From the NCBI RefSeq assembly GCF_000153805.1, contig NZ_DS022298.1:1926827-1990826 (forward strand): a stretch of DNA of 64,000 bases, given 5' to 3'. This DNA is from Synechococcus sp. BL107 (lineage in GTDB: Bacteria > Cyanobacteriota > Cyanobacteriia > PCC-6307 > Cyanobiaceae). How positions within the stretch are numbered: position 1 is the stretch's first letter; each line of letters starts with the position of its first letter. Of this stretch, positions 14,104-30,710 are shown one piece after another. The notes beneath the pieces are model-generated. The model saw only the letters and a list, made by a program, of their open reading frames with translations. It ran no database searches and had not been told where the DNA came from. The position numbers and the translations under genes are program-made.

Positions 14104-14376
14104 TTAGAGCCTGGGAACGATATGCGTCACCAGGTCTGCATTGACCCAAAACACCTCGCCTGAATCGACATCGGCGACTTGAAACAGGGTCGGCACCTGC
14201 GGATTCCTCGCGCCCCCCTCCACATAGATCACGTCCGCCATCCACCAGCGGTCGTCGGCCGACACAAAACCCACCTCAGGGAGATGCTGAACAATCACAG
14301 TCATACCAGCCGTCACCGATAAAAAGATGGGATCCCCCGCCTTAACGGGCACAGGCGCAGAACGGTCTTCGCTCAT
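14104..14376 (-). CDS. DUF3104 domain protein, likely LexA-controlled
   Basis: 90-residue protein of a small cyanobacterial family (DUF3104), recognised from the conserved WWMADVIYVEGGARNP segment and the end motif LFQVADVDSGEVFWVNADLVTHIV. The predicted fold is a compact beta barrel with no catalytic motif; its function is unknown. ATG is at 14376. A perfect LexA-type palindrome lies only 12 bp upstream, between plausible -35 and -10 elements. A TAAAAT -10 sits so near the ATG that the message may be leaderless. The gene is alone on its transcript as far as the sequence shows. Confidence 0.8.
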   Translation of the reverse strand: MSEDRSAPVPVKAGDPIFLSVTAGMTVIVQHLPEVGFVSADDRWWMADVIYVEGGARNPQVPTLFQVADVDSGEVFWVNADLVTHIVPRL

Positions 14377-15186: not shown

Positions 15187-15216
15187 TTGACAGGTGTCGA
15201 GCGATTCAAATATATT
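15187..15216 (+). promoter_or_regulatory. sigma-70-type promoter of the cyAbrB gene
   Basis: A perfect -35 TTGACA at 15187-15192 is followed, after 18 bases, by TATATT at 15211-15216. Transcription would begin near 15223, leaving about 19 bases before the ATG at 15242. This shows that the in-frame GTG at 15194 lies inside the promoter and cannot be the start codon. Confidence 0.75.
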
Positions 15217-15241
15217 TTGGGAATCAATCAACAGCAATCCA

Positions 15242-15631
15242 ATGCTTACGGGTTCAGACCTTCTCACAAAAGTCAAAGATCTCGGCGACGTTTCAAAGTC
15301 TGATTTGGTAAGGGCTTGCGGTTATGTATCTACAAAGAAGGATGGCAGCGAACGCCTTAACTTCACTGCGTTTTACGAGGCTCTTCTCGACGCTAAAGGG
15401 GTAAATCTCACCGGCGGTGGAGCTGCAATTGGCAAAGGTGGTCGCAAACTGAGCTACATCGCAAAAGTTCAAGGCAACGGCAATTTGCTGATCGGCAAGG
15501 CTTACACCGCCATGCTGAACCTGGAACCCGGTGATGAGTTTGAAATCAAACTGGGCAAAAAGGCAATTCGTCTGCTCCCCACTGGTGCTGCTGCAACCCA
15601 CAGCGAAGGCGCTGAAGGCGTTGAAGAGTGA
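15242..15631 (+). CDS. cyAbrB family transcriptional regulator
   Basis: 129-residue cyanobacterial AbrB-like protein. The helical N-terminal part (GSDLLTKVKDLGDVSKSDLVRACGY, key KSDLVRACGY) is followed by the family signature GKGGRKLSYIAKVQGNGNLLIGKAYT and a swapped-hairpin AbrB-like DNA-binding domain at the C-terminus (LEPGDEFEIKLGKKAIRLLP). Members bind DNA and regulate nitrogen and carbon uptake genes in model cyanobacteria; the targets here are unknown. ATG at 15242 is fixed by the promoter at 15187. A strong terminator at 15666 makes this a single-gene unit. Confidence 0.88.
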   Translation: MLTGSDLLTKVKDLGDVSKSDLVRACGYVSTKKDGSERLNFTAFYEALLDAKGVNLTGGGAAIGKGGRKLSYIAKVQGNGNLLIGKAYTAMLNLEPGDEFEIKLGKKAIRLLPTGAAATHSEGAEGVEE

Positions 15632-23526: not shown

Positions 23527-24825
23527 ATGCCAGACCCTCTGCGGTGGTGGAACCAGTTTCCACTAGCGCTGAGAAATGTCACCCGCATCCGACTCCTGGC
23601 ATCGATCGGGGCCGGTGGAGTCATTTTCATGACTCCGCTTATTTTTCATGCGATCAATTTCTCCGCCAGCCAGGTCGGAAGCGGACTGGCTCTAGCCGCT
23701 CTGATTGGCACTGTGGTGCGTTTGATCAGTGGTGTGCTGATCGACCGTGGCTTGCGCTGCTCATGGCCAATCCGGATGACCACCCTCCTGGCCATCGTTG
23801 GCGATGTGATTTTGGTGCAAGCGAACGATTACTCCCACTTTCTGTTTGGCCAAGTTCTGCTGGGCTGCGCTGCAGGCCTTTACTGGCCAGCAATTGAGCT
23901 CGCCGTTCCCCTGAGCTGCGCCCAAGTGCCCTCCGGGCGTGGCTATGCCCTCGTCCGCAGTGCTGATGCCCTCGGCATCGGATGTGGAGCCTTGATCGGA
24001 ACCCTGGCGTCCACCCAGGGGGCCTTACGGATCGTTTACAGCGTTGAAGCGCTTTGCATGGGTGCTGTGCTGATTTTGATCAGCCTTTGGCCACTGCAAG
24101 ACGACCGCCCTGCCCATGGTTCAAGCAACTTTGCTGACAAGTCCGCATCCCGCCGGGTTCCTGCAACACCAACCTGGCTATTGCCGTTGTTGCCTGTGCT
24201 CGGCACCAGCGTTGTAGCCACGGGCATCCTGGCCCTGCAACAAAGTGCTTTACCCCTGGATCTTGTGCAGGGCAGCCTTCAGCGACCCAGCCTGAGCGAA
24301 AGCCACAGCAGCGCTTTGATTGCCCTGCAACTCATCCTTCTCGTCAGCTTGCAGTGGCCAGTTGGTCGATGGCTCTCGAACCGCAGTGTTGGCTTCGGTT
24401 TAAGCATCAGCCTGGCCAGCTTCAGCTTGGGATGCGTCTTGATTGCTTTGTCGTCGCTGTTTACGGCCGGCACAGCGCTTGTGTTGGTGAGCCTTCTGCC
24501 GATGGCCTTCGCCCAAGCGGCTTTCCTTCCAACAGCCACTGAAGCCGTGATCGAAGAGACACCTCCAGAACATCGTGGGCTCGCGATGGCCCTCTTCTCC
24601 CAGTGCTTCACGGTGAGTGCAATCGTTGCCCCCCTCCTCGGGGGAGCCATGCTGGATCAGCTCAACAATGGATTGCTGCTCTGGCTCTTGATGGGAGGTG
24701 CTTGTCTGGCGATGCTTCCGGCACTGCGCAACTTGCGCCCCCGCTTTACAGCGGATGGATCATCCTCCGAACAGAACCCCAAGGCTGAGGTTCAAGGTGT
24801 GGAAAAAACCTTATCGATGCTGTAA
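23527..24825 (+). CDS. major facilitator superfamily transporter
   Basis: About 432 residues with roughly 12 hydrophobic segments. The loop 2-3 MFS signature appears as GVLIDRGLRCSWPIRM, and a central cytoplasmic loop (about residues 195-225) separates the two halves. The substrate is not evident; efflux of small molecules is the family default. I chose ATG 23527 over the upstream 23491 because the earlier residues are not MFS-like and would overlap the divergent DUF1400 gene. Its 3' end overlaps a minus-strand gene by 34 bp. Confidence 0.85.
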   Translation: MPDPLRWWNQFPLALRNVTRIRLLASIGAGGVIFMTPLIFHAINFSASQVGSGLALAALIGTVVRLISGVLIDRGLRCSWPIRMTTLLAIVGDVILVQANDYSHFLFGQVLLGCAAGLYWPAIELAVPLSCAQVPSGRGYALVRSADALGIGCGALIGTLASTQGALRIVYSVEALCMGAVLILISLWPLQDDRPAHGSSNFADKSASRRVPATPTWLLPLLPVLGTSVVATGILALQQSALPLDLVQGSLQRPSLSESHSSALIALQLILLVSLQWPVGRWLSNRSVGFGLSISLASFSLGCVLIALSSLFTAGTALVLVSLLPMAFAQAAFLPTATEAVIEETPPEHRGLAMALFSQCFTVSAIVAPLLGGAMLDQLNNGLLLWLLMGGACLAMLPALRNLRPRFTADGSSSEQNPKAEVQGVEKTLSML

Positions 24826-25091
24826 CAAGGTGTCCACGCCACCTTGGGTTGAATCGGCTGCAGTCGTCGATTCATCAACGTGTAGCGACAAAACTGGCCA
24901 CTTTGTTCCAGCGCCGGTCCCCTTACGGTGACCTCTAACGGGTCAAGTTCCACCCGGTAGCGCATTTCAAAGCTGGGCCGTGAAGTCAGAATGGATGAGC
25001 GATGCAACGTGTAGGTCACGGCATGGGCGTCCGGGGAACCCAGACCAAGCAAGACACCCCACAGCCACCAAGTCCGACCGAGATCACCCAT
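24792..25091 (-). CDS. small secreted hypothetical protein, 99 residues
   Basis: A signal peptide (TWWLWGVLLGLGSPDAHA) is followed by ~75 residues rich in beta-forming segments (TYTLHRSSILTSRPSFEMRY, RVELDPLEVTVRGP) with two cysteines, in FCRYTL and TPCYSI, that could pair. The family is not recognised. It overlaps the MFS gene by 34 bp at its 3' end, and its ATG shares the CATG tetranucleotide at 25089-25092 with the start of the sulfotransferase-like gene on the other strand. A slightly later start on one of the two strands is possible. Confidence 0.6.
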   Translation of the reverse strand: MGDLGRTWWLWGVLLGLGSPDAHAVTYTLHRSSILTSRPSFEMRYRVELDPLEVTVRGPALEQSGQFCRYTLMNRRLQPIQPKVAWTPCYSIDKVFSTP

Positions 25092-26283
25092 GACGTCAGA
25101 CGCAGGATTTCAAAACAGTACGACTAATGCCAGGTTCCAACCCCTGCTAATCGTGCATGCCGGAACCCATAAGACAGCCTCGACATACATCCAAGAGCGG
25201 TTGCATCTCAACCGCGACTTGCTGAGCCAGCAATCAATCACCTATCAGGATCCTTGCTTCGATCGACCAAAGGCCAAAAAACTTGCTGGTGAATTATGTA
25301 AATACCGCGAAAAGCGCTGGAGAAGAATGCTCTCCAATCACAAACAAGGCGAGCACCTTCTATTAAGCGCAGAACAATTTTCTGTTCCATTAACCAATCA
25401 AAAATGCATTCAAAACCTGGAAGAGCTTGCCAATAGCTTTGGCCTCAAGCTGCACATTGTGATCTTCATTCGAAGCCAGCTCGACTACATCAATTCCCGC
25501 TACATCTACTCGCTACGACGGTTTTATCACAGCCAAACCTTCGAAGAGTTTGTATCCGACGCCCTTGAAGGTGAGATGCATAGTGAACGGCAACAACGGG
25601 GACGCATTACACGTCGTCAAGATGTTTTTAATTTTTGGACGTACTTCAAACCACTCTTAAAAGCCAAGAAATCTGGACTCAAGGTGAGTTTCATCCCGTT
25701 CAAACAAGGCGGCAGCGACCCCTTTCAAGATCTGATGACGACCATTGGAGTATCCCAAAACCAACCCTGGAGAAACTGCACGAGCCGACACTTCAACCGA
25801 AGCCCTGGCACACGCGGTGTATGGATGGCACGCCTGCTGAGTCAAAAGCTCAAGGAGCATAAAATCACCAATAAATCCATCGACAACTCTTCACAGATCA
25901 TTCTTCGAGAAGAGCAACAACGAGGCTGGAAAGATCCGGCCTTTTGGGGTTATTCCAGACGACTAAAGAACCAAGTGGTGAAACACTTCAAAGCCGACAA
26001 CAAAAAGTTCGCCAAGGCCGCTTGGGGAACGAGCTGGTCATCATCATTTCCAGATGATAGCCAACTGAAACTGCGAAAGAAACAAATTTATCAGCCCCAA
26101 TCCATTGAAGAAGAAGAGACAATGCATGCTATTGCCATCCATCTTTTACGCCGAATTCGCCACCAAATCAATCCTAACTTTGCTTCTCAAGTTGCAGACC
26201 CCTTAGAGCGAATCACAAGCTTCTTATCACCATCGATCACCCTTCAGACAATCCGACGCATCAAATCGTGGCGCAAGCAGTAG
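25090..26283 (+). CDS. sulfotransferase-like P-loop protein
   Basis: 397 residues. The N-terminal LIVHAGTHKTASTYIQ (residues ~20-35) matches the PAPS 5'-phosphosulfate-binding loop, and VIFIRSQLDYINSRYIYSLR (about 124-143) matches the 3'-phosphate-binding Arg-Ser element. Family members transfer sulfate from PAPS to sugars of surface polysaccharides or other acceptors; the acceptor here is unknown. The C-terminal half is basic and poorly conserved. Codon use is more A/T-ending and Lys/Asn-rich than neighbouring genes, and it opens an AT-richer island, both suggesting lateral gain. The start is ATG 25090 with no strong ribosome binding site. Confidence 0.7.
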   Translation: MTSDAGFQNSTTNARFQPLLIVHAGTHKTASTYIQERLHLNRDLLSQQSITYQDPCFDRPKAKKLAGELCKYREKRWRRMLSNHKQGEHLLLSAEQFSVPLTNQKCIQNLEELANSFGLKLHIVIFIRSQLDYINSRYIYSLRRFYHSQTFEEFVSDALEGEMHSERQQRGRITRRQDVFNFWTYFKPLLKAKKSGLKVSFIPFKQGGSDPFQDLMTTIGVSQNQPWRNCTSRHFNRSPGTRGVWMARLLSQKLKEHKITNKSIDNSSQIILREEQQRGWKDPAFWGYSRRLKNQVVKHFKADNKKFAKAAWGTSWSSSFPDDSQLKLRKKQIYQPQSIEEEETMHAIAIHLLRRIRHQINPNFASQVADPLERITSFLSPSITLQTIRRIKSWRKQ

Positions 26284-26482
26284 GGATTTTTAGATCAGAA
26301 TTAAATTACACATAAATTCATATCAACCCATCTATTGGATTTGACACAAATGAACCTAAAGCAATCGACGTTTCTGAATTTTGAAACAAGCACAACCCGA
26401 CAAGCTCCATCAATTACCTCCAATCTGGCCAGTCTTTATACCTGAACGATCGTCAACAGATCGCCAAAAAAGCTTGCACTCT

Positions 26483-26635
26483 TCATTGCAGACTCAACAA
26501 ATTTCGCTCAGCATCTTCAGATAGCAGAGCATAAATACATTCCCCACTCTGATTCCTAAAGGTCACCACATCTAGATGGTTTGGATGAGCGTCGACGTCA
26601 GCATATTTACCGCTTCGAAGAAGATAACGGGCCAT
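26483..26635 (-). CDS. 50-residue protein, copy A of a tandem pair
   Basis: A small gene starting at ATG 26635 (MARYLLRSGKYADVDAHP...). It shares a clear pattern with the copy just upstream: ARYLLR-x-G, then a D-x-V-x-FR-x-x-SGE-x-IYA-x-LSE-x-AE core. The shared residues span almost the full length, while the codons have diverged, which is strong evidence of real coding. The frame is open further upstream into copy B, but the similarity begins at this Met. The function is unknown; no signal peptide or membrane segment is present. Confidence 0.62.
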   Translation of the reverse strand: MARYLLRSGKYADVDAHPNHLDVVTFRNQSGECIYALLSEDAERNLLSLQ

Positions 26636-26720
26636 AGATTTAATGTTTCTAATTAATTTTAAAAGCCTGAAATAAGATTTGTTTGTTCGCTTTACCGTAC
26701 CACTTTTTATACGAAGGCGA

Positions 26721-26882
26721 TCAAGATAAATCCCAAGCCTTGAGCAATCGATGCTCAGCACTCTCTGAAAGAGTGGCGTAGATGTATTCGCCACTAAAGC
26801 TTCTAAAAACAAGCACATCTATAAGCTTCGGCTCAACTTCAATACTGAGCAAAGAGCCATTACGCAGCAAGTAGCGAGCCAC
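26721..26882 (-). CDS. 53-residue protein, copy B of a tandem pair
   Basis: Minus-strand GTG at 26882 to TGA at 26721 gives VARYLLRNGSLLSIEVEPK, then LIDVLVFRSFSGEYIYATLSESAEHRLL (shared core FR..SGE.IYA.LSE.AE). It is a paralogue of copy A, 85 bp downstream on the same strand. The frame stays open another ~19 codons upstream, so the exact start is uncertain; the GTG matches the Met of copy A. It is too short for ordinary gene callers. Function unknown; the tandem arrangement points to a recent local duplication followed by divergence. Confidence 0.58.
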   Translation of the reverse strand: MARYLLRNGSLLSIEVEPKLIDVLVFRSFSGEYIYATLSESAEHRLLKAWDLS

Positions 26883-27306
26883 CCCTTTCACAGCAGATAC
26901 ACAACCATAAGAGGAATCGCTCTTGCGCAGATCGCTTATCAGTCAATCCATACTTATCTGCCGATTTCCTGTATCAATGGCTGCCTATCGGCGGAATAGA
27001 CGCATCCGTTGAATATACATTGCAGCCAGTTTCAAAGATCGGCGACGACCCGAATAGGCCCTAGATTACTTAACATTCAAATTATTGAAGAATTGCATTT
27101 TGGGGATCCTCTCTCCCCTAAGTAGTGGACATATTGAATAAAGACTTTCTTGGGGTCATTCATCAAAGCTCGACAACACATCTGAAGAACCTCAAATAGG
27201 AAAGCGAGCAGTCAGCAACGATTCCTGAGACCGTAGCGATAGGTATTAGTCCTCTGACTTCAAGGGCTGCCCAAGCAACTACAACGCTCATGTTGTAAAC
27301 GAGAAA
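26883..27306. other. AT-rich stretch without a supported gene
   Basis: Several short frames and many stops. The only noteworthy frame is a 42-codon minus-strand one at 27163-27291 (MSVVVAWAALEVRGLIP...) just downstream of the small secreted gene at 27307; it has no ribosome binding site or relatives here. No terminator with a T run was found. Confidence 0.45.
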
Positions 27307-27552
27307 TCAACTTGATTGAAGAGACTCAACGGTGTTGTGCAGTTCACCGATATCTCTTAATCCCTCAACAGAGAACCAAGGAGAGTTTTCCCAACTGAAG
27401 CCTTCCCCCATTGTGGAATCTGGAGCAGTGATGTACCAGTGGCATGCCGTGTCGGGAACATCAACAGCGCACTTACTCCAATCGTCCTGCCACTGGGGAA
27501 CTTGAACCCACATCAGGGCAGCAAACATAAGAGAGAAGATGGATTTCATCAT
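27307..27552 (-). CDS. small Trp-rich exported protein, 81 residues
   Basis: A signal peptide (MMKSIFSLMFAALMWVQVPQ) is followed by a mature part of ~60 residues rich in Trp and Asp with two cysteines (SKCAVDVPDTACHWYI) that may form a disulfide. A periplasmic or lumenal location is inferred. Its ATG overlaps the stop of the membrane-protein gene upstream (ATGA), so the two form a translationally coupled operon and may work together. Family not recognised. Confidence 0.65.
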   Translation of the reverse strand: MMKSIFSLMFAALMWVQVPQWQDDWSKCAVDVPDTACHWYITAPDSTMGEGFSWENSPWFSVEGLRDIGELHNTVESLQSS

Positions 27553-27749
27553 TTTTGATAGAGCTCCTCAAGTTGTTCGCGACTGAAGTTGGCGTAAAGA
27601 ACTTCTTCGCCTGATTCAGGTGCTTCTGGATGCCTTTTGATAGGTTTATCCCAAGTCGTATTTCGAATATTTCCCCACATCATCGCGAAAGCACCGCCTG
27701 CTATCACTGCGAAGAAGAGAAAGTAGAGGGCTGCGAACCAACCGTTCAT
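27549..27749 (-). CDS. single-span membrane protein, 66 residues
   Basis: An N-terminal transmembrane helix (WFAALYFLFFAVIAGGAFAMMWG, about residues 4-26) is followed by a ~40-residue soluble tail ending in a charged helix (SREQLEELYQK). The size and layout resemble small accessory subunits of photosynthetic or NDH-1 complexes, but I do not recognise it as any named one. It is the first gene of a pair with the exported protein at 27307, overlapping by 4 bp. Confidence 0.65.
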   Translation of the reverse strand: MNGWFAALYFLFFAVIAGGAFAMMWGNIRNTTWDKPIKRHPEAPESGEEVLYANFSREQLEELYQK

Positions 27750-27937
27750 ATTCGTTTACCTTGCTTTACAAGAATTAATATACACGAAACCGGTGGTCGA
27801 TTACTCCACTGGCGGAAGCGTCAAGCGATGACCAAGCCAAATGGAGACCAATCCTTTGACCCGGCAACGACTAGGGCGGTTCTCCGTGACAGTCAGCGCT
27901 CAAGGCCTCCTAGACCGCTGTAGTTAGGTGGTATCCA

Positions 27938-28024
27938 ATGATCTTCACTGTTCTTGCAATTTCCGCTGCTGCTGTCGGTGTGATGGCAATTTTCTATGGC
28001 GAAGTGATCTTGCTCCAACGCTGA
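27938..28024 (+). CDS. 28-residue single-span microprotein
   Basis: ATG 27938 to TGA 28024 encodes MIFTVLAISAAAVGVMAIF, then YGEVILLQR: almost entirely one membrane helix with a short charged end. A strong TAGGTGG ribosome binding site lies 7 bases before the ATG, better than most genes in this window, and supports translation. Its size and shape match accessory subunits of photosystems or the b6f complex, but the sequence is not PetN, PetL, PsbM, PsbT, PsaM or Psb30 as I know them. Confidence 0.5.
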   Translation: MIFTVLAISAAAVGVMAIFYGEVILLQR

Positions 28025-28329
28025 CAACCAAACTGACGTTTGGGCAAGTGAGTCACGAGTTTGATTGATTCATGCCATTCACCAGAAAATTCTTACAAAA
28101 CCCGTACGGGAAAGGCAGGATATGTGCATTATCTTGCTATCAATCTTCGGACAAAATATTTAAGTACAAATTGAACAAAACTTAAGCCATATAGCCCAAC
28201 CAGACATCACCCAAGCTATAGATAAAATAAATATTTATTCTCTATTTAATGATCTCCAAATACATCATCCACGACCTCGATCTGCTTAAAGGTCAGGCAT
28301 AATAATGGCCTCTGAATATGGCTGACAAA
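28025..28329. other. AT-rich gap of about 300 bp, nothing recognised
   Basis: Low-complexity AT-rich DNA between the microprotein and the ychF terminator. The minus-strand frame at 28246-28428 overlaps ychF and looks non-coding. No tRNA or repeat seen. Confidence 0.5.
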
Positions 28330-28368
28330 AAAGATCAAGATCAGCCAATCGATTTCAATTTGATCTTT
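28330..28368 (-). terminator. AT-rich hairpin, possible terminator of ychF
   Basis: AAAGATCAA (28330-28338) and TTGATCTTT (28360-28368) form a 9-bp stem with a 21-base loop. Read on the minus strand it begins at the ychF stop and is followed by TTTT. The stem is weak (two G-C pairs), so termination may be inefficient. Confidence 0.45.
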
Positions 28369-29458
28369 AAACGTTGAACAGAAACTCCATAACATCTCCT
28401 TCCGCCACCACATAATCCTTCCCTTCACTACGCAACCAGCCTTTGTTTCGGGCTTCGACTAACGAACCAGCATCCAGCAGTTTTTCCCAACCAATCGTCT
28501 GAGCTCGAATGAACCCACGCTCAAAGTCGGTATGAATCACACCGGCCGTTTGCGGAGCTGTCATCCCTGATTTAAATGTCCAAGCGCGAGTTTCTTTTTC
28601 GCCTGTCGTGAAATACGTCCGCAGCCCAAGAAGTCGATAGGTCGCCCGAATCAAACTGCGAAGCCCCCCTTCACTCACCCCTAAGCCTTCGAGATAGTCG
28701 GCCCGTTCTTCGTCGCCAAGTTCCACAAGTTCCGCTTCCACTTGCGCTGAAATTCGCACCGTTTCAGCCCCTTCTTGCTCCGCAAGAGCAGTCACTTCAG
28801 AGCAGTAGGCGTTGCCATCTGCCAAATCGTCTTCACTCACATTCGTGGCGTAGATGATCGGCTTCGCCGTCAGCAGACCCAGAGGTTTGATCATGCCCTC
28901 CTCTTCTGCAGTGATCTCCACACTGCGCGCTGCACCGCCCTGCTCCAGCACCGCCTGGATCCGCGCCAGGGCCGCATCTTCCACTTGCGCCTCCGTACTG
29001 GTGCGCATTTGCTTTTTCAGACGTTCACGGCGCTTCTCGATTTGCGATAAGTCGGCAAGACCCAACTCCAGATTGATCACCTCGGCATCCCGCGCTGGCC
29101 CCACAGTGCCGGAGACGTGAATCACATCGTCGTCTTCAAAACAGCGCACCACATGCACGATGGCGTCGACTTCGCGGATATTGGACAAAAATTTGTTGCC
29201 CAGGCCTTCGCCCTGGCTTGCCCCCTTCACCAAGCCAGCGATATCAACAAACTCCATTCGCGTTGGAACGGTGTTTTGACTCTTGCTGAGGTCTGTGAGC
29301 AGCTGGAGACGATCATCCGGAACCGACACCGTGCCCACATTCGGCTCGATCGTGCAGAACGGGAAATTGGCAGCTTGCGCCTGAGCGTTGGCCACCAGTG
29401 CGTTGAACAACGTGGACTTGCCCACATTGGGCAATCCAACAATTCCGGCTTTGAGCAT
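28367..29458 (-). CDS. ychF: redox-regulated ATPase YchF
   Basis: 363-residue Obg-family P-loop protein. The start ATG 29458 gives the standard N-terminus [21 protein letters not shown] with the G1 motif GLPNVGKS; the frame upstream is unrelated sequence. G3 is [20 protein letters not shown], and the G4 position is replaced by YATNVSE (in place of NKxD), which explains the ATP preference of this family. A TGS domain with TGEKETRAW follows. YchF binds ribosomes and is linked to translation and oxidative-stress response. It is divergent from the efflux adaptor at 29511. Confidence 0.95.
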
Positions 29459-29510
29459 GAGGCGGAATCTACCGGCCGACGACGAGACTGTTGTTAACTT
29501 TTGTGCGCTC

Positions 29511-30710
29511 ATGCCGCAGTCCCAGCGACGACCCCGCACAACCTTGCCCACCCCCTCTTCCTCGTCGGCGCCGACCAGCTCTCCTGACGAGATGTCCAGA
29601 GCGTCAGCTGCTCGCTGGCGTCCGAGCCAAAAAACCATCGCGATTGCCCTTCTTGCCCTTCTCGGCGGGGGGTTGCTGCTGGCGAGGTTTGCCCCTTGGA
29701 ATCCAAAACGAGACCTCACGCCTTACACAACAACTGCGGAGCGGGGGTCCCTGTCCGGTGTCGTCACCGCCAGCGGCGAACTACAAGCCATCCAAAAGGT
29801 GAACGTGAGCCCCCGCCAGCAGGGGCTTCTCCAGACATTGCTGGTGGATGAAGGCGATGTGGTGAAGGCGAACCAGATTTTGGCGGTGATGGATCGCGGT
29901 GATCTCAATGACCGTCTTCAAGAACGTGAGGCCCTGCTTCAACAAGCAAAAGCCCAATACAGAATCAAAAAACAGGAATATGAGCGCCGGAACAAACTGT
30001 TTGAGATGGCGGTGATCAGCGCTGACGACTTCAGCACCGTTCAAAACGAAATGCTTGCCCGTCAGGCGGCGATGACGGCAGCACAAGAGCGGGTCGAACA
30101 GCTCGAGCAAACAAAACGAGAGCTGGATATTCGCGCTCCCTTCGCCGGAACGATCACGGCCCGATATGCAGAACCGGGGGCGTTTGTCACCCCCACCACC
30201 GCAGCTTCAGCCACCGCTGGTGCCACCAGTTCATCGATCGTGGAGCTCTCCCAGGGATTAGAGGTTTCGGCTCGAGTTCCGGAAAGCGACATCGGACGGA
30301 TCGCCATCGGCCAGGCGGCACAAATCCGCGTGGACGCCTTTCCTGATGAGCGCTTCCAAGCCCGGGTAAGCGAGATCGCTCCGAGGGCTGTGAAACAGGA
30401 GAACGTGATCTCCTTCGAGGTGCAACTTGCGCTCATGAATCCCCCCAAGAAATTGCTGATTGGGATGACCACCGACGTGGACTTTCAAACAGGCCGCAGC
30501 GCCATCAAGACCCTCGTCCCCACCGTGGCGATCGTGACGGAAGGCGGCAAAACCGGGGTACTTGTGGTGGATCAACAGCAACAGCCGGTCTTCCAGGAGG
30601 TGGAACTCGGCAGCAGCAGTGATGCACAGACTGCAATTCTGGAGGGGCTTGATGAGGGAACGCGCTTGTTCATCGACCTGCCCCCCTGGGCCAATCGAAA
30701 CCGCGATTAA
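29511..30710 (+). CDS. efflux transporter periplasmic adaptor (HlyD/MacA type)
   Basis: About 399 residues: a Ser/Pro-rich cytoplasmic start, one membrane anchor (AIALLALLGGGLLLARFA), a lipoyl/barrel-sandwich half (GVVTASGELQAIQKVNVSPRQQGLL), a coiled coil (DRLQEREALLQQAKAQYRIKKQEYERR...), the second half (RELDIRAPFAGTITARYAEPGAFV; key RAPFAG) and a beta-barrel domain. It bridges an inner-membrane MacB- or RND-type pump to the outer membrane; no pump gene is adjacent, so the partner is unknown. I chose ATG 29511; upstream codons belong to the ychF antisense. Confidence 0.87.
   Translation: MPQSQRRPRTTLPTPSSSSAPTSSPDEMSRASAARWRPSQKTIAIALLALLGGGLLLARFAPWNPKRDLTPYTTTAERGSLSGVVTASGELQAIQKVNVSPRQQGLLQTLLVDEGDVVKANQILAVMDRGDLNDRLQEREALLQQAKAQYRIKKQEYERRNKLFEMAVISADDFSTVQNEMLARQAAMTAAQERVEQLEQTKRELDIRAPFAGTITARYAEPGAFVTPTTAASATAGATSSSIVELSQGLEVSARVPESDIGRIAIGQAAQIRVDAFPDERFQARVSEIAPRAVKQENVISFEVQLALMNPPKKLLIGMTTDVDFQTGRSAIKTLVPTVAIVTEGGKTGVLVVDQQQQPVFQEVELGSSSDAQTAILEGLDEGTRLFIDLPPWANRNRD

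Follow-up and report, generated by a model that had tools for sequence, protein, structure and literature searches.

A comparable case among small cyanobacterial proteins is NirP1, which binds and modulates nitrite reductase and is missing from most marine picoplanktonic Synechococcus, according to its published description (PMC10907346). In regard to the genomic setting, picocyanobacteria rank as dominant primary producers in the ocean, with many genes of unknown function in their genome islands. Islands of this sort have been described for marine Synechococcus (PMC2441476). The locus studied here lies in Synechococcus sp. BL107, in a stretch of 64,000 nucleotides that was analysed as a whole and is called the window. 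The sequence-only reading of this stretch had proposed two tandem paralogues of a protein of about 50 residues, placed in an AT-rich island and possibly defining an unnamed micro-protein family.

A tandem pair of small genes under purifying selection

Two related frames are present on the minus strand, in the places and at the distance that had been proposed. Copy A (26483-26635, minus strand, stop codon included) codes for a protein of 50 aa from an ATG start, copy B (26721-26882, minus strand, stop codon included) codes for a protein of 53 aa from a GTG start, and the spacer leading from B to A (26636-26720, minus strand) measures 85 bp. In a single, ungapped pairwise comparison the two proteins share 25 of 47 residues (53%, E 5e-17), both containing the motifs ARYLLR-x-G and FR-x-x-SGE-x-IYA-x-LSE-x-AE. 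Their codons differ, as had been noticed, at 72 of the 150 aligned bases, of which 17 fall at the first, 18 at the second and 37 at the third codon position. The AT-rich setting is equally apparent, the G+C content of 26483-26882 being 0.415 vs 0.572 for the whole window. These two are the only copies in this genome (2.285 Mb, one contig).

Copy A is indeed located inside a larger frame of 111 aa (26483-26818, minus strand), the upstream part of which is closed by a stop in the related genome G006. There, the upstream stop and the ATG of A are just three codons apart, which supports the inner start, and the 111-aa frame was rejected as the gene of copy A. For copy B, the open reading frame listing offers an alternative in-frame GTG at 26891, giving 56 aa; in the alignment, B starts with GTG in the window, TTG in G006 and ATG in G027, which supports the inner start of this copy too.

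G006 and G027 each have clear orthologues of A and of B, with order and strand unchanged, and the spacers measure 84-97 bp in the three genomes. The dN/dS of A (Nei-Gojobori) is 0.079 between the window and G006, 0.109 between the window and G027, and 0.064 between G006 and G027, while that of B is 0.08 for window-G006 and 0.08 for G006-G027. The range of 0.06-0.11 covers the pairs without dS saturation; for B between the window and G027 dS is saturated and pN/pS is 0.27. Against the closest orthologues, those of G006, pN/pS is 0.13 for A and 0.11 for B. Between the copies themselves, where the sequence-only reading had regarded a ratio near 1 as speaking against it, dS is saturated (pN/pS 0.42), and it is the closest orthologues that yield a dN/dS of about 0.08. 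Identity between the window and G006 amounts to 0.877 for B and 0.837 for A, compared to 0.565 for the spacer and 0.622 for the region after A. Considering the low dN/dS, the better conservation of the genes than of the spacer, and the aligned starts, A and B are two protein genes under purifying selection. That they are real genes of a real family is nearly certain in our opinion.

The leader of B (26883-27013, minus strand, 131 bp) is also similar to that of G006 (identity 0.82-0.89). Its block at 26932-26992 on the minus strand shows 72% identity to G027 across 61 bp, and corresponds there to the end of a 50-aa frame that is broken by a TGA in the window and in G006. The block may be what is left of a small gene, or else a leader that has been conserved.

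Members of the family and its neighbours

The homologues that the sequence-only reading had expected in other genomes were found. With copy B as a query, 25 of 59 genomes gave matches of E 1 or better, many of which are weak, and this copy reached other subfamilies on its own at E 7e-7 to 1e-4. With the profiles A1 and A2, members were detected at E 0.01 in 52 of the 300 genomes searched from the window's taxonomic family and, at the genus level, in 22 of 34 genomes, including 16 of the 19 near-complete ones. If genomes at least 90% complete are taken into consideration at E 0.001, members are present in 49 of 271 genomes of the taxonomic family, in 11 of its 34 genera. The copies A and B themselves match profile A1 at E 1.6e-22 and 4.6e-21, values that arise partly by construction, as both are rows of A1. 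At the class level, 19 of 291 genomes match at E 0.1 or better, 12 of which belong to the same family; the matches in the other seven are partial (E 0.006-0.1) and were taken as chance, so that a spread beyond the taxonomic family was rejected, as were three further weak matches to copy B (E 0.09-0.67). In the genome_contigs collection, copy B alone gave no confirmed relative in 136 stretches, and alignment A3 gave 4 confirmed among 19, all from Synechococcus sp. None of 6 pattern stretches found in viral contigs with A3 is a relative. In phages, copy B has matches at E 6-8 only and two other subfamilies have none, and no match was found in plasmids for one other subfamily; a phage or plasmid origin was rejected on these grounds.

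At least five subfamilies could be distinguished by reading of the members: the RYVLR-type, the RFLLRDGNKVGA-type, the RYLLRDGNKIS-type, the pair of the window, and the FLLRDG-type of other genera. They share the core xRYLLRxG...P..LDV..Y...G....ALLS..AE..LL, in which an R, a G and a late L are invariant in the 22 rows of A2, with a P and an E nearly so, and they are stand-alone proteins of about 50-80 aa; in three long frames that were read, the domain is not fused to others. The tandem pair is rare, being present in 3 of 34 genus genomes, and elsewhere single genes of other subfamilies prevail. The idea of duplicated genes forming a family therefore needs refinement: the family is real, and it is broader than the pair. 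The RYVLR-type gene was read in 12 genus genomes and was not found in the three genomes with the pair, one of which is only 77% complete. Among the genomes listed, those of about 1.6-1.9 Mb are without members, and so are several of 3 Mb. Since 3 of the 19 near-complete genus genomes have no match and another near-complete genome, G033, holds a broken copy split over two frames (G033:C1:1224668-1224864, L090), the family is dispensable.

No family in Pfam, NCBIfam or PHROGs corresponds to A or B, the NCBIfam search covering A, B and five other members. Among 22 members, the best results were E 0.023 in Pfam, 0.047 in PHROGs and 0.02 in PADLOC, for one member each, and none of them is convincing. 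A profile search of PDB sequences had its best match at E 0.039, to an unrelated partial stretch. No paper on the family appeared in the titles and abstract beginnings of the open-licence papers found, and Cyanorak may number some of the members. The comparisons made so far thus characterise it as a genuine unnamed family, apparently restricted to this picocyanobacterial branch, which is in accordance with what had been suggested for the pair.

Two other groups of small proteins occur close to some members. DUF3104 (PF11302) resembles the family in that it is small, of unknown function and, within this genus, multi-copy (33 of 34 genomes), but A, B and the 22 rows of A2 do not match it at the cut-off of 27 bits, whereas three true DUF3104 proteins score 80-89 bits. 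A DUF3104 gene lies 111-131 bp upstream, on the same strand, of 7 of 45 genus matches (G003, G007, G016, G019, G028, G029 and G032). These neighbours were found by eye against the whole table, with gaps computed from 45 family and 19 DUF3104 rows, and a Pfam check confirmed DUF3104 in two of the seven. As the seven cases belong to two subfamilies, they represent at most two independent events or loci. Next to the pair of the window there is no DUF3104 gene; the copy that the window does have (14104-14376, minus strand) is 12 kb away and lies in another AT-richer stretch, at 13-16 kb, where a gene at 15194-15631 is presumably AbrB-like. The second group (A7) consists of unnamed proteins of about 55 aa near other subfamilies, the P, G and D residues of which are spaced in a superficially similar way, but it was rejected as a relative, the profile-profile comparison giving a probability of 0.1 percent and E 0.49. 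Such proteins (L086:4532-4702, L097:3732-3899 and similar) show two invariant cysteines in 12 rows, and two of them have no convincing Pfam match.

History of the pair and its genomic setting

In a tree of 52 core sequences over 54 columns, A and B each form a clade of the same three genomes, with supports of 98/96 and 98/95, respectively. The rows used had to reach profile position 45, while late starters (after position 6), duplicates and four named long-branch rows were excluded; an earlier tree, which demanded position 50, had omitted copy A. The sister relation of A and B has a support of just 82/67, and 54 columns offer little resolution. Given the two three-genome clades, the duplication is old, predating the split of the window, G006 and G027. 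The notion of tandem paralogues is thereby retained for the paralogy itself and corrected in regard to timing, as the pair consists of two orthologous lines kept in three genomes and not of a recent duplication.

The pair is located in an AT-rich stretch (26284-28366) between two convergent gene ends. On one side is a gene for 397 aa (25090-26283, plus strand) without any Pfam family, the product of which we take by eye to be sulfotransferase-like, and on the other a GTPase gene (28367-29443, minus strand) that we assume to be ychF, a 358-aa part of which served as query. G006 and the window are co-linear in the vicinity of the pair, and the remaining small genes of the stretch are not the same in these two genomes. 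The stretch is absent at the same site from G004 (YchF 96% identical, genome 65% complete), where the sulfotransferase-like gene and ychF end about 15 bp apart, and in five more of the 20 ychF loci compared (L168, L171, L178, L180 and L182) the sulfotransferase-like gene lies less than 200 bp from ychF with no member between them. The simplest reading is that the stretch was inserted in the line of the window and G006. Alternatively, it could have been lost in G004. In G027 the surroundings are unrelated, and only the pair and the leader match within 24001-30000 of the window.

A search for flanking repeats that could mark the ends of an element gave nothing convincing, no RNA families were found in 25000-29000, and no tRNA genes in the window. 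The gene at 27307-27552 on the minus strand, an 81-aa frame that by eye begins with a signal-like segment, was rejected as a partner of the pair, since 27 of the 34 genus genomes have it and it lies less than 5 kb from a member in 6 of the 27 (judged by eye). Its window copy is 94-96% identical to those of G004, G006, G014 and G027, and the G006 copy is far from the pair. The third gene upstream in G027 has no true homologue elsewhere in the 34 genomes, where the other matches are at E 0.04-0.92.

Predicted fold and possible functions

AlphaFold models of copy B reached a best pLDDT of 87 with pTM 0.66 (the others 85, 72, 68 and 65), with strands at 2-5, 11-14, 23-27 and 33-37 followed by a helix at 40-52. 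For another subfamily, the best pLDDT was 84 (the others 65 to 55) and the model has the same core with a second helix; both runs rest on one and the same shallow alignment of seven sequences. The predicted structure is a single compact domain made of four strands and one helix. Foldseek gave nothing significant for either model in the PDB (best E 0.47 and 0.44) or for copy B among viral models (best 0.13). The best VIA-align Z was 4.8, to part of DapD. None of these results shows the fold to be new. Both models also weakly match the N-terminal region of IsrB (8dmb), presumably its PLMP domain, over 43-44 residues, yet the Z values of 4.2 and 3.8 are at the background level and there is no match in sequence.

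The reading that we favour, at a rough probability of 0.35, is that A and B are small adaptors of the cytosol that bind to proteins and are co-expressed as a pair. It is based on the compact stand-alone domain, the unconserved charge of the core, the lack of a signal or membrane segment in A and B as judged by eye, and the pair staying together at a different site in G027. In such a scenario, both proteins would be made from one transcript, remain soluble in the cytosol and act through contact with a protein partner, working together either in a heterodimer or as one regulator in two tuned versions, in a manner comparable to NirP1. They would ride as accessory cargo of the genome island. The dispensability of the family, the weak A-B sister support and the shallow alignment behind the models speak against this reading. 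A more far-reaching variant, which we consider unlikely, would see a lineage-specific interaction domain whose subfamilies, at least five, each have their own partner, two of them standing behind DUF3104, with an A/B heterodimer replacing the RYVLR-type gene.

Only slightly less probable is that A and B are near-equivalent copies of a weakly needed housekeeping gene that do not act jointly and are retained through dosage or a slight specialisation. The majority of genomes with the family do have single genes of other subfamilies, and three near-complete genus genomes have no member at all, but A and B are still distinct, each persisting as its own conserved line in three genomes. With less plausibility, the two could be small nucleic-acid-binding regulators whose sheet or basic tails bind RNA or DNA and tune nearby genes. 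Several other subfamilies have basic C-terminal tails of up to +8, and the match of both models to IsrB could be viewed in the same direction; A and B, however, are tail-less with net charges of -2 and -1, the IsrB scores are background values, and IsrB is absent from the profile matches to PDB sequences. Over 56 members the net charge of the core varies from -9 to +4, which does not point to a generic nucleic-acid surface.

Even less probable is a role in conflict, with A and B as small anti-phage, counter-defence or toxin-antitoxin proteins of a variable region. The patchy presence of the family (in 49 of 271 genomes) and the AT-rich inserted stretch, together with the different site in G027, would suit such cargo. 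There is no fitting PADLOC model, though, the viral and phage searches described above yielded no relatives, and A and B are paralogues under equal constraint, unlike the usual toxin-antitoxin pair. Finally, chance frames or decaying remnants could be suspected from the very short frames, the GTG start, the AT-rich setting and the absence of consensus promoters and terminators in 26300-27350 (where shuffles expect 2.4 and 0.9, a weakly informative result for cyanobacteria), but dN/dS of about 0.08, conservation limited to the genes and the leader, and members in many genomes in practice already refute this explanation.

The value of the locus lies in conserved, unnamed and very small proteins with fixed starts and a predicted fold, and in a rare pair kept as a unit. 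It gives annotation, gene knock-outs and interaction studies a concrete object, and is a solid annotation result without surprise in principle. The general kind is already known: small proteins of unknown function that are restricted to a lineage and occur in genome islands of picocyanobacteria. The likeness to NirP1 consists in small size, occurrence in cyanobacteria, the lack of a recognised domain and a most conserved part that is predicted to form four beta strands, whereas its tryptophans are described as totally conserved (PMC10907346) and the invariant columns of A1 and A2 contain no tryptophan, copy A having none at all. Judged by this published description, NirP1 serves as a precedent for the role and not as a relative.
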